In this document: in pieces, positions 5,075-35,550 of the stretch
Position numbering within the stretch: the first letter of the stretch is position 1
Layout: every line of letters starts with the position of its first letter
DNA from: a virus
DNA: 35,550 nt
Virus record (IMG/VR): IMGVR_UViG_3300030328_002821
Location: 1-35,550 of that record
Reading direction: 5' to 3' (one strand)
Notes under the pieces: generated by a model
The model's input: only the letters and a program-made list of their open reading frames with translations
Told to the model about the DNA's origin: nothing
Databases searched by the model: none
Program-made: the position numbers and the translations under genes

Positions 5075-7624
5075 CTAAGCGGTTTCAGATTCAGGTAAGT
5101 CTAATTTATTATACCTGTCAAGTGTAATATCCCATACTCCCGCATCTTCTTTTGAATCTAACATACGTTGTTTTTTACCAGTCCAAGTAACCCAAGTCTT
5201 TTTACCATCTAAAGGTACAACTCTAACGTGTAATCTAGTATCAAACTTATCGCCTTCTAGTTTATATTCATGGTAACCATCCTTTTGAACTCCTAATATT
5301 AATTTACCACTATCTATTGTTTTACCTTCTTTAACACCCGAAGTAATTATTTTAGCAGGAAACTTACCTGATTTACCAAATAGGTTATAAACATCAGAAG
5401 TTGTTTCTATATCAAATAACCATGCCATAGTTTTTTCTCCTGCTTCAATAATAAAATCTAAATTATTATCCTCCCTTCTTTGTATAGTAAAACTACCTTC
5501 TTTAGGATTCTTCTTAGGTTGTTTTTCAATCATTTCATCATTAGCAGTAAATGTATCTTCTGTTTTATTATAAATTATATCTTCTTGAATTATTAACCAT
5601 TTCTTTAATTTTTTAATATCACTATTAAATACTGCACTTTCAAATTTTTCCATATGGTGTTCTTTAATATATTCTAATATTTTTTCAAAACTAACTGGGT
5701 CATCTAGGTCTATTAATTTATTTTTTATATCTACTCTTAATTCTGAACGCATACTTTTTATGGCTGACTTTAAATCTTCTTTCCAAACATCTATATCATA
5801 TAGTGCTTTTTTCTCCATTAAATTATCCCCACTAAAGCCCATAATAGTAAAACCATCTAAGTTAGTTTTCAATATTATTTCTGCTTCCCCATGTATTTCA
5901 TCAGTAATATACATTTTCTTTACGCCTTTTAATTTATACTTAAATGGTTTATCTAAATCTTCCCAAATAGATTTTTTTGTTTTATCTGATAATAGTTCTA
6001 ATGTTGATAATTTATCAGATTGAGTTACTTCCGGTATCTCTATGACTTTAGCAGAATATACACTAAACCCTTCTTTGGTTTTCTTTACTTCGTCAACCTT
6101 TACTCTCACAATTTCACCAACTTCAACAGACTGTTTAGTATTCAATGCTTTACCAATAGGCAAATATTTTTTATCTTCTAATTCTTTGGTATTATATTTT
6201 CTTGCATCCTCTGCTGATAAAGGTCCAATACCAATAGTATAAGAATACAAATCACTTTTAGTCTTTTTAGAATCTAATATTATAACATCTAAATCAACAA
6301 ACTTTTTCCACTTAACCCATTTAGGGTTTTTTCTGCTACCTAATTGATATGTTGATTCGATGTCTTTTATCACAACACCCTCAGACGCAGGTAATTGCAT
6401 AATAGTTTCAGAATACTCGCCTACCTCTTTAATAGAATCTGCTATTCTAGTATCTTTCTTAGATGGGAATGCTAAATCTTCGGAAGAATGTTGGGAATAT
6501 TGATACATTAAAATATTAATTCTTTCTCTCAATGGTTCATCCATTAAATCTCTTTCTTCATGCCTCATTATATCAAATACATGAAGTCTCAATTTTAACC
6601 CATCTATTTCTTTCTTAAATATATAATTAATTACAGATGCCCTGTGCAAAGGTTCTTCACCTCTGAATAACATTAATTCTCCATCTAATATACAATCACC
6701 AAAGTGTTTTTTACTCAACTGCTCAACTTGGTCAGGACATTTATCAGTAATTTCTTTTTGATTATAGGAAAATATTTTTACTTTGCCATCTATTTTATGT
6801 AATTGAACTCGCATACCATCATATTTTTCTTGAACAACATATTCTCCACTAAACCCTTTTAGTTGTTCCATATCATTTAATTCAAATATTCGATACATTG
6901 GTTTGTTAGGTACTATAAAATTAATATCTGATTTTTCTTCTTCTGATTTTTCTTCTGATTTTTTGATATTAATATCAACTAATTTATTCCATTGTACTGA
7001 TGTATATTCTTCTAAAAACACCTTTTTTAATAAAGATAACATACTCTTAAATCTTGTTTTAATTCTCTTGGTATCTTTACCATCACCATAATGTTCTGTA
7101 ATGTATAAAGGAATATCTTTACTCTCTAAATCTAATCCCATAGCACCCTGAGTAATTTCATCGGGAGATAGATTATGTTTTTCCCAAGCAGATGAAGGCA
7201 ATGGGATATTATGAGACCTTAATGCATAATGAATAAATGCAACAAAAACACTATCATTAGATAGGAATGTCTCTATTACATTATCTCCTAACTGTTCAGA
7301 AAATGGGTCACTTATTTCTTTAGATTCAAATCTTAAACTTTTAACAGCATCATATAATTTTCTTGCTTGTATAGATGTAGGGTCTTCTGCACTCTCATCA
7401 AATACAATATCTTCATCTAAATATTTTTTTAATAGTCCTGTAAAAGTATCTAAAGAATCAAATTGAGTTCGTATAGATTTTACAGTTTTTTTCCATCTCT
7501 TACCATATTCTTTAGGGTCTTCTAAAGCAGATAAATAAGAATAACGTGTGCGTTCAAAAAAATCTAAAACACGCTTTGTTAACACGTCTTTTTTCTTTTC
7601 AAATACTACACCTGAAATTGACAT
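5075..7624 (-). CDS. ATP-dependent DNA ligase with long C-terminal extension
   Basis: This 849-residue ligase has an N-terminal helical DNA-binding-like region (about 1-235). The nucleotidyltransferase core follows with motif I EKYDGMR (AMP-accepting Lys267), motif III DGE (314-316), motif IIIa FD (350-351), motif IV EGVVIK (415-420) and motif V WVKWKK (436-441). An OB-fold region spans about 445-540. Residues 540-849 go well beyond the usual ~550-600 residues of archaeal ligases. Part of this tail (about 740-770) weakly resembles the LigD 3'-phosphoesterase domain, but its catalytic His residues are not visible. The start has GAGTGG upstream. Its place between head genes and the small W-motif genes is unusual; it could act on packaged or incoming DNA. 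Confidence 0.93.
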   Translation of the reverse strand: MSISGVVFEKKKDVLTKRVLDFFERTRYSYLSALEDPKEYGKRWKKTVKSIRTQFDSLDTFTGLLKKYLDEDIVFDESAEDPTSIQARKLYDAVKSLRFESKEISDPFSEQLGDNVIETFLSNDSVFVAFIHYALRSHNIPLPSSAWEKHNLSPDEITQGAMGLDLESKDIPLYITEHYGDGKDTKRIKTRFKSMLSLLKKVFLEEYTSVQWNKLVDINIKKSEEKSEEEKSDINFIVPNKPMYRIFELNDMEQLKGFSGEYVVQEKYDGMRVQLHKIDGKVKIFSYNQKEITDKCPDQVEQLSKKHFGDCILDGELMLFRGEEPLHRASVINYIFKKEIDGLKLRLHVFDIMRHEERDLMDEPLRERINILMYQYSQHSSEDLAFPSKKDTRIADSIKEVGEYSETIMQLPASEGVVIKDIESTYQLGSRKNPKWVKWKKFVDLDVIILDSKKTKSDLYSYTIGIGPLSAEDARKYNTKELEDKKYLPIGKALNTKQSVEVGEIVRVKVDEVKKTKEGFSVYSAKVIEIPEVTQSDKLSTLELLSDKTKKSIWEDLDKPFKYKLKGVKKMYITDEIHGEAEIILKTNLDGFTIMGFSGDNLMEKKALYDIDVWKEDLKSAIKSMRSELRVDIKNKLIDLDDPVSFEKILEYIKEHHMEKFESAVFNSDIKKLKKWLIIQEDIIYNKTEDTFTANDEMIEKQPKKNPKEGSFTIQRREDNNLDFIIEAGEKTMAWLFDIETTSDVYNLFGKSGKFPAKIITSGVKEGKTIDSGKLILGVQKDGYHEYKLEGDKFDTRLHVRVVPLDGKKTWVTWTGKKQRMLDSKEDAGVWDITLDRYNKLDLPESETA

Positions 7625-33043: not shown

Positions 33044-33070
33044 GCGGATTGTTGTTGTGAGCAACTAATT

Positions 33071-33110
33071 GGGGAGATGGGGTTTAAACACCCTATCTCT
33101 CCTTTTTTTT
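33071..33110 (+). terminator. Strong hairpin terminator with T8 run
   Basis: A stem of about 13 bp (33071-33083 paired with 33090-33102, loop TTAAAC, with two G-T pairs) is followed by eight T (33103-33110). It lies 28 bases after the stop of the 32561-33043 gene and clearly ends that transcript. Confidence 0.8.
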
Positions 33111-33111
33111 A

Positions 33112-33751
33112 TTTTAGGGTCTTAAACTGACAAAGTGTTTAATACCATATGGTTGTGTATTGTTTTAAAATAGAGGCTGCCGAGAACTTGACCACATCCT
33201 TTATATACCCTAGCGAGAATCCTGATTCTGTACAGTCAATGAAAAACCATTTATGTACAAGAATAACCTAATTACTATTTAAGTAGGTATTCTTCAAAGG
33301 ATTAATTTTTTACCACCAATATAACGCAAGTTATTATTACTAACAGTTAAAGAATCATATTAATACAATATGCTATATTTCATAACAATATTGGTATCAG
33401 ATATCCTATATAATATAGAATAACTAAATTATATCTTAGTCATTTTGATTAACATTCTTCCTTTCCACAAAGGTAAAAACGAGAGGTAGAACAAAATGAA
33501 TAAGATATAGGATATATGTATATCATTATAATATACATTATCATTTACTACATTTACATACATACATACATACTTTTTACCTCTCTCTCTTTTTATTTAT
33601 TTATTCTCTCTAGAAAAATGCAAAAATGAGAGAAACGAAGAATCGAAGTCAAAATGATAAACATATTACATGATATGTGAATCATTCCGTCATTTCCAAC
33701 AAATGTAAACGAGTGGAAACTAAAAACTAATAAAATAAACAAGGTGATAAC
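33112..33751. other. Long AT-rich intergenic region with operator and inverted repeat
   Basis: No supportable gene. It holds the operator TACCATATGGTT (33143-33154), a TATA-like TTTATATACC (33200-33209), an inverted repeat GAGAGGTA/TACCTCTC (33481-33488/33578-33585), a short CATA tandem (around 33553-33571), and many AT-rich palindromic strings at 33355-33420 and 33505-33545. Such regions can hold replication origins or long leaders; nothing more specific can be shown. Confidence 0.5.
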
Positions 33752-34174
33752 ATGACCAAAGAAGATAAAGAAACAAAAACAGAAGAAACAGAAAATACGA
33801 AGTATATGAGAATGTTTGGTGATAAAGGAAATATAAAATATTCTCCTAAAGGAACGATGCAACAACCCTTTACTAGGAAACCCCTTGAAGGTGTTGAACT
33901 TTTAATACAAGAAAAGTGTAATGATATAAAACATATGCTTCTTAGAAAGAATGAACAATATGGAGATTCAGCATTGAATCCAATTAGAATATTCTCAACA
34001 TCTAGTACAGATGAACAACTCCGAGTTAGAATAGATGATAAGTTAAGTCGTTTAACTCGCGGTAATGATTTATTAGAATCAGATGATGATGTAATACATG
34101 ACCTAATTGGTTATCTAGTATTACTATTAATACATAAAGACACTCACCCCATAAGTGGAGAAGTTGTAGAATAG
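33752..34174 (+). CDS. MazG/DUF1599-like nucleotide-pyrophosphatase-type protein
   Basis: The 140-residue protein has an unstructured acidic/basic N-terminus (about 50 residues). The helical domain follows, with KNEQYGDSALNPIRIFS (about 70-85), VRIDDKLSRL (about 93-102) and DVIHDLIGYLVLLLI (about 115-130), a pattern typical of the DUF1599 / nucleotide-modification-associated all-alpha phage proteins related to MazG. It may act on nucleotides. GGTGATAAC precedes the ATG. No catalytic proof is visible. Confidence 0.6.
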   Translation: MTKEDKETKTEETENTKYMRMFGDKGNIKYSPKGTMQQPFTRKPLEGVELLIQEKCNDIKHMLLRKNEQYGDSALNPIRIFSTSSTDEQLRVRIDDKLSRLTRGNDLLESDDDVIHDLIGYLVLLLIHKDTHPISGEVVE

Positions 34175-35198
34175 TCTTAGCGGGCTATTTTACAATGCTT
34201 TAGGGTGTTATAATAAGGGTTTTACCAAAATAAAAAAGTAAGAAGATATAGAGGATGAGTGATGTTAAGCAAAAAAGTCGCTTAATGCTAATTCTAGAAC
34301 AGCAAAGTAATTCGATATTAGAGTAATAGGTTATCACAAGTATTATGCTTGAGTTAATTGGTCAAACTTGTGTACAAAACCACTTGTTTTACTTGAGTAT
34401 TGTCATATTACCAAAACTCGTAAAACTAATTTATCTGTATTCTCGAACAGATAGTCAGTAAGAATTGTTTCCGCTAGAAACGATGGTCTGCTGATGACTT
34501 ACCCTCGCGGTAATGGCATAGCACAATTACTTTCCCTTTAACACTCAATAGTCAATGAAGACTTTAAAATAAAAACACTCTAAATTCGTTTAGGGTAGAG
34601 GTTTATGCAGTAATAGTTCAAGGCTCATGCTAGCCGGTGTTGACATATACTTTCATAGAAGATTCTTCTTCTGCATCTTGTGAACTCCCTCTACCCTCCG
34701 AATATTTACACTCAATATATCAGACGGAAGAATATGGCAACCTATTACATTCCGTTCCATTGCAGCCATATGCATAATTGGTGTTTCTGATATTGTTCAA
34801 TTGAGTAGAGTTTACTGAAATAAAAAAGACGAATCGTGATGGATTAGATTTCCATCCAAAGCAGTAATTAAATGACCTGCCCAAACCAGTAATGTGCTTT
34901 TCCGCCATGTCTTTCTCTACTATTTACACTCACGATTATTAGTCTACGGATTAGTAATTACCCAATTAAGGTTTTACTGTATGTATAATAACTTAAGTTG
35001 ATTAAGTCGCCATACTAAAAAAATATGCAAAGTTTTTGCTTTAAATCCCAGTTCGTTCAAGTCTGGGAGCGTTCATAAATGGGCTTGTATATTTTCCTTA
35101 ATTGCGAGTTGGGTTTGTCAAGTAATACATCAAGGGTAATTAAGCAAGAGCCAAGAGATGTCCCCAACTAATCACATTCCAATATGGAGATAATTAAA
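34175..35198 (+). ncRNA. Long structured non-coding region, candidate large RNA
   Basis: No supportable gene in about 1 kb, but many perfect stems. Examples are TTAAGC/GCTTAA (34265-34285), ACAAGT/ACTTGT (34336-34371), ATCTGT/ACAGAT (34433-34452), GTTTC/GAAAC (34467-34481), TTACC/GGTAA (34499-34513), an 8-bp stem capped by TTCG (34577-34596), AGGGTAGAGG/CCTCTACCCT (34592-34601/34688-34697), AATCGTGA/TCACGATT (34832-34839/34930-34937), GATGGA/TCCATC (34838-34856) and TCCCAG/CTGGGA (35046-35068). The motif CTCTAC...TATTTACACTCA is duplicated about 215 bases apart. Plus strand is assumed from flanking genes. No RNA family is recognised. It may be one large RNA or several. Confidence 0.6.
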
Positions 35199-35550
35199 AT
35201 GAATATATTTATACTAGATAATAACCCAAAGACTTGTGCAAAAATGATGTGCAACAAACACGTTGTTAAAATGCCAACGGAAAGTATGCAAATGATTTCA
35301 ACGATTTTACATCATCATGGTATAGATTCACCATACAAACCTGTAATGTTGAATCATCCTTGTACTATTTGGGCTAGAAAAAGTAGACAAAACTTTAGTT
35401 TTCTTTGGGAACATTGCTTTGAATTGTGTAAAGAATATACGATTCGCTACGGAAAGACTCACAAAGTAGAAGAAACTTTACGAGAGTATGCAAGTAAAAT
35501 TGCAGAAATGTACATTTTGTTACCTGATATAGGTCTTACCCCATTTGCCC
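35199..35550 (+). CDS. Conserved phage protein of unknown function, 3' end cut off
   Basis: The open frame runs from an ATG at 35199 (GGAGATAATTAAA upstream) to the window edge (117 residues visible). It reads MNIFILDNNPKTCAKMM, then CNKHVVKM, NHPCTIWARKSRQNF and YTIRYGKTHKVEE, which I recall as a hypothetical protein widespread in tailed phages ('CDKHVVKM...NHPC.IWAR'). Cys/His content is notable. The function is not known to me. Confidence 0.7.
   Translation, partial: MNIFILDNNPKTCAKMMCNKHVVKMPTESMQMISTILHHHGIDSPYKPVMLNHPCTIWARKSRQNFSFLWEHCFELCKEYTIRYGKTHKVEETLREYASKIAEMYILLPDIGLTPFA

Follow-up and report, generated by a model that had tools for sequence, protein, structure and literature searches.

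A candidate modular RNA of repeated pseudoknotted folds in an archaeal-looking viral genome

Our analysis revealed a large, conserved element in a viral genome that is composed of tandem copies of one fold and one different element, H. As judged from sequence comparison, this structured and modular element is very probably read as an RNA on the + strand and would have its function at the RNA level. A preliminary description of the same DNA had proposed that this viral genome harbours a large modular RNA with possible pseudoknots, and the test it had named, conservation and covariation in relatives, bears this out. The two modules it noted are both real, but its count was short, since there are five such modules (P0-P4) and one of another kind. 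Beyond that description, our comparison points to an archaeal-looking virus, to one fold repeated five times in tandem and to modules that appear to have been exchanged between viruses.

Position and layout of the element

The window, which is the whole stretch of 35,550 nucleotides that was analysed, belongs to an IMG/VR virus record that is 58,593 bases long. The element sits in a rightward operon between a phrog_1485-like gene (33752-34174) on its 5′ side and a pyrimidine-dimer-glycosylase-like gene (from 35199) on its 3′ side. From 34174 to the next gene there is no + strand ORF of 60 aa and a single - strand ORF, of 62 aa. The fold of a module consists of stem a around an A-rich strand plus the crossing helices b and c; CACTCA linkers follow P0, P1 and P2, and the array terminates in CACATTCC. 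The parts are listed below; R1 (a covariance model) and R2 are treated in the next section, and family labels were assigned by reading.

34199-35180, + strand: whole modular RNA element; non-coding, conserved in five close relatives; candidate transcript
34199-34209, + strand: outer helix TTTAGGGTGTT, partner AACACTCTAAA at 34574-34584; encloses P0; conserved in family A with little variation
34215-34538, + strand: P0, large 5′ module; layout common to six loci of several families
34215-34219/34534-34538, + strand: P0 helix a, AAGGG/CCCTT
34222-34226/34509-34513, + strand: P0 helix b, TTACC/GGTAA; short or lost in some loci
34235-34241/34527-34533, + strand: P0 helix c, AAAGTAA/TTACTTT
34515-34524, + strand: GGCATAGCAC motif between P0 b and c; GGCATAGNAC in P0 of 12/12 compared loci
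34541-34547, + strand: linker ACACTCA after P0
34593-34696, + strand: P1; weak R2 match with exact borders
34593-34601/34688-34696, + strand: P1 helix a, GGGTAGAGG/CCTCTACCC
34605-34610/34671-34676, + strand: P1 helix b, ATGCAG/CTGCAT
34615-34620/34681-34686, + strand: P1 helix c, AGTTCA/TGAACT
34703-34714, + strand: linker TATTTACACTCA after P1
34717-34793, + strand: H, different element; also in L007 (88% identity) and L110 (79%)
34804-34921, + strand: P2; R1 76.5 bits (seed member), R2 62 bits; covariation
34805-34810/34915-34920, + strand: P2 helix a, GTAGAG/CTCTAC
34812-34817/34887-34892, + strand: P2 helix b, TTACTG/CAGTAA
34818-34824, + strand: P2 A-rich strand
34825-34830/34909-34914, + strand: P2 helix c, AAAGAC/GTCTTT
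34921-34932, + strand: linker TATTTACACTCA after P2
34962-35104, + strand: P3, outer stem CCAATTAAGG/CCTTAATTG; weak R2 match 34966-35101
35106-35169, + strand: P4, terminal module; a GAGTTGGG/CCCAACT, c ACATC/GATGT; b uncertain
35173-35180, + strand: terminal CACATTCC, before the ribosome-binding region; common to families A and B

All strings quoted in the preliminary description were found where it had placed them, including the same linker, TATTTACACTCA, after both of its modules (34703-34714 and 34921-34932). Four relatives retain the first of its two crossing pairs (ATGCAG/CTGCAT with AGTTCA/TGAACT), with b down to 4-5 bp and without covariation. The second, GTAGAG/CTCTAC with AATCGTGA/TCACGATT, is not supported: AATCGTGA/TCACGATT pairs at 8/8 positions in the window, but L006 and L007 each have two mismatched positions and L096 lacks it. 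The crossing helices of P2 are instead TTACTG/CAGTAA and AAAGAC/GTCTTT. Helices b and c of P3 are uncertain in the window and clearer in L006. P4 shows a compensatory change within family A and has a weak R2 match (35108-35168), relatives of P4 having belonged to the R2 training set.

The virus carries archaeal-type information genes, encoding a TFIIB-like protein, clamp-loader proteins, a family B polymerase and an ATP-dependent DNA ligase, and the GenBank phage matches of its capsid and portal proteins are archaeal viruses (22-29% identity). The terminase departs from this pattern, as its best matches include bacterial phages. By its genes it looks like an archaeal tailed virus, from which we infer the host. 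A tRNA search of the window and the rest of the record found none. An AT-rich stretch of ~700 bases divides the leftward from the rightward genes, and the GC skew flips its sign there, which suggests a candidate replication origin at 33044-33751. This stretch is non-coding and contains a terminator-like hairpin (33071-33102), a TATA box and AAACGAG-containing repeats; TTTATATA is found at 33200-33207. The palindrome ACCATATGGT, possibly an operator, occurs five times in the window (29374, 31692, 32420, 32469 and 33144; expected 0.02), and CCATATGG likewise lies upstream of the RNA element in relatives. An ATP-dependent DNA ligase domain is present in two proteins of one viral genome (window 5075-7624, - strand; L003 15800-17446, + strand).

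Evidence for the module fold

A descriptor of a stem enclosing crossing helices was applied with a cut-off score of 47, using 60 dinucleotide shuffles of the region as control. It gave two matches >= 47 in the region, compared with a mean of 0.17 and a maximum of one in the shuffles. The duplication noted in the preliminary description goes beyond chance, with scores of 52.5 and 49.4 versus 48.8 for the best of the 60 shuffles. Since the reverse complement of the region also gives two matches, the descriptor is blind to strand, and the strand was set by the covariance model.

Seeds were first chosen by the descriptor, which required a, b and c, and were then hand-listed. Alignment A9, with ten modules in register, was adopted as the R1 seed because the 3′ strands were out of register in alignments A7 and A8; the model itself includes only helices a and c. 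Applied to 81 loci (730 kb), R1 yielded 25 matches at E <= 0.01, some of which represent one place in two overlapping or near-identical records. All of them are on the + strand, which is the strand of the neighbouring genes, and all lie in non-coding stretches of this virus group. In a further 740 kb of viral loci, collected by means of the 5′ motif, the L110 contig was the only one with a match past E 0.1; the confinement to the group applies to the scanned loci (730 + 740 kb).

Standard pairs make up 97.6% of the pair cells in the 25 aligned matches (shuffled, 70.8%; slid, 40-55%), and double-sided pair changes number 84 versus 24.6 in shuffled and 1-9 in slid alignments. These counts lean towards structure, because the alignment was made to fit the structure, and helices a and c had guided the choice of seeds. 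The covariation count was also made on 26 matches, with L313 included. Nine pairs show any double-sided change, which is not above the shuffles (7.7), and covariation within family A alone is not significant. Matches outside the seed are free of the seed-picking bias; an example is L313, a blind match with E 1e-7 that adjoins a P0 found by another motif. Stem a, the A-rich strand, helix c and double-sided changes are all found in P2 and its relatives, and weakly in P1, P3 and P4. With filters off, R2 detects P2 (62 bits), followed by weak matches to P4, the beginning of P0, P3 and P1 at borders that had been set by hand earlier. The weak matches have E 0.04-0.8 in 2.5 kb with false matches interspersed, and the R2 training set was without P1 and P3. 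Single-strand folding of the parts gave z -1.3 to -2.9. We consider the anatomy of helices a and c almost certainly correct.

Helix b was left out of the covariance model and tested by partner permutation. With a first definition of its 5′ strand (up to the A-rich motif), which truncated 2 of the 15 modules, 3 of 5,000 permutations and 1 of 200 shuffles were as high. On 15 non-redundant modules, fixed windows of 8, 9 and 10 nt, chosen after that result, were matched by 0, 0 and 5 of 20,000 permutations. Because b had been considered in choosing most of these 15 modules, the test was redone on six modules from the a/c model alone. Here, 17, 24 and 44 of 720 permutations (p 0.02-0.06) and 1, 7 and 9 of 1,000 shuffled interiors were as good. 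The six-module figures are the ones to rely on, and the presence of crossing helix b is regarded as likely rather than proven.

P0 varies too little in family A for covariation. In a swap test on five representatives, own pairings scored above swapped ones on average only, and a shuffled-tail test on six loci was therefore run. In these six (the window, L099, L126, L133, L117 and L313), the stem that precedes the TT run finds its partner beside c, in the segment following GGCATAGNAC. Compared with shuffled tails, p ranged from 0.0025 to 0.12, and the combined value of 2e-7 is optimistic because the start strings were chosen by eye. P0 helix b is missing in L006 and has 4 bp in family D and L117.

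Relatives and exchange of modules

Five close relatives (L005, L006, L007, L008 and L094) have the element in the corresponding position. Diverged relatives, which were reached via 3′-end and linker patterns and a neighbouring-protein search, form groups B (L096, L099, L102), C (L125, L126, L308 and, placed by pattern context only, L315) and D (L133, L134, L138), with L117/L119 and L313 being similar. Further arrays occur in L135, L137, L110, L124 and L132/L136. All sequence outside the window is metagenomic.

Compared with L099, L096 has gained P2 and another module type, T3, between two CACACTC copies. P2 is identical at 138/138 positions in L096 and L007, save a 46-base hairpin inside the L007 copy, and this identity stops directly after CACACTCA. 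P0 is 68% identical between L096 and L006, and the glycosylase-like neighbour proteins of the two families are ~60% identical to each other. A module with 138/138 identity beside neighbour proteins of ~60% argues that modules move as cassettes, on evidence from metagenomic contigs in which misassembly is possible for any single contig. T3 spans ~95 bases (L096 2123-2217, L133 3272-3366, and also L138) and is 86% identical between L096 and L133, which belong to two diverged families. A hammerhead reading of T3 was weighed by eye and dropped.

By reading, the genes downstream of the array differ between viruses, and L110 and L132 also have single modules in intergenic gaps elsewhere in the operon. 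In L135 (2634-3293) and L137 (2924-3590), P-modules are interspersed in alternation with genes for tRNA-Lys and tRNA-Leu, and tRNAs adjoin modules in L110, L135 and L137. A hairpin, CTTACTACC...GGACTAGAA, was seen in L006, L007, L125 and L126; in L007 it is part of P2, and in three loci it separates modules. BLASTN of the RNA against GenBank phages returned short matches only, the one in LR756500 being inside a leucine-rich-repeat-like ORF. A Neobacillus match (L097) had nothing but the search pattern in common, and L098, L100 and L101, brought in by the 3′-end pattern, were chance matches in coding sequence.

Possible functions and comparison with known RNAs

As a whole, we favour an operon-transcribed array that acts as a multivalent scaffold or decoy, with a probability of roughly 0.4. 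An archaeal-type promoter near 33200 would drive transcription of the element together with the operon, and the repeated fold would present the same surface several times to a protein or ribonucleoprotein of the virus or its host. With the fold and a few constant bases (G-UUU, A-rich strand) maintained, the helix sequences would be free to vary, and modules would be gained, lost or exchanged at the linkers. A fold kept despite helix change, the variable copy number and the differing next genes point to such a repeated surface, and a scaffold or decoy mechanism is our leading, if tentative, guess. We count the strand-specific matches, L313, the double-sided changes, helix b, the P0 layout and the module exchange in favour of this explanation; P1, P3 and P4 scoring weakly alone and the origin of the seeds in a descriptor requiring a, b and c count against it. 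With more reserve, the element may represent a new class of viral RNA device, in which independently folding, exchangeable pseudoknot cassettes with their own linkers make up one large archaeal-virus RNA, possibly cut into single modules or forming particles.

The sequence evidence does not separate a scaffold from a stability or processing element, which we regard as rather unlikely. Compact pseudoknots would then stop an exoribonuclease or mark cleavage and protect the operon mRNA, in the manner of flavivirus exoribonuclease-resistant RNAs (xrRNAs) with a different fold. Arrays just upstream of genes with ribosome-binding sites, the single modules in further gaps (L110, L132) and the constant linkers would fit this role, whereas modules between tRNA genes in L135 and L137 would not. 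A cis-regulatory leader, in which elements in tandem would sense a protein or act like riboswitches to control the next gene, is improbable: the position before genes and the constant bases of the compact pseudoknots agree with it, but up to five copies, differing downstream genes and copies between tRNAs do not, and no shared expression platform was seen. Similarly improbable is an RNA-only assembly, i.e. a homo-oligomer or cage as in GOLLD and ROOL, which the size, pseudoknots, viral genome and some tRNA neighbours recall (PMC12286853); there is no Rfam match, and the very variable module number would fit one closed particle poorly. A DNA-level role, in a replication origin or as a hot spot of recombination with the folds as by-product, is very improbable: the AT-rich stretch with its skew change adjoins the element and plain recombination could explain the cassette exchange, but pair changes are double-sided, matches keep to a single strand relative to the genes and arrays also lie away from the origin-like stretch (L110, L135).

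In Rfam 15, no family matched at gathering score, and none of GOLLD, ROOL or OLE appeared at E <= 10 in 33601-35550; tRNAs were detected by the same searches. Permissive scans gave matches far under the gathering scores, besides tRNAs and overlapping matches on them in L135. Thus an array of exchangeable copies of one knotted fold matches no recorded RNA family, and a literature search, covering few subscription papers and none of the preprint servers' own holdings, returned no account of such a modular RNA. Flavivirus xrRNAs are likewise compact, pseudoknotted viral modules and often repeated, whereas they belong to the 3′ untranslated region of RNA viruses. Their layout differs from that of the P-modules, and the permissive scan of 33601-35550 gave no match to any xrRNA classes that Rfam may hold. 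OLE RNA is also a large ornate non-coding RNA, but it is bacterial and has another context, and the element is without an Rfam match.

The large ornate RNAs described to date are those of bacteria and their phages, and little is understood of what they do (PMC12286853). The natural module losses, gains and swaps of a modular large RNA in archaeal-looking viruses would provide ready-made variants for probing function. GOLLD and ROOL contain pseudoknots and are also found in phages, where tRNAs are often nearby (PMC12286853). The likeness to them, which the preliminary description had drawn while recognising no sequence match, holds in kind only: large size, pseudoknots, viral genomes and tRNA neighbours in some members of each (PMC12286853). 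In contrast, GOLLD and ROOL are known from bacteria and phages and are not described as tandem copies of one fold; moreover, GOLLD keeps a conserved 3′ region, whereas here P0 recurs at the 5′ end. GOLLD and ROOL are the nearest in kind, and the element is not a member of either.
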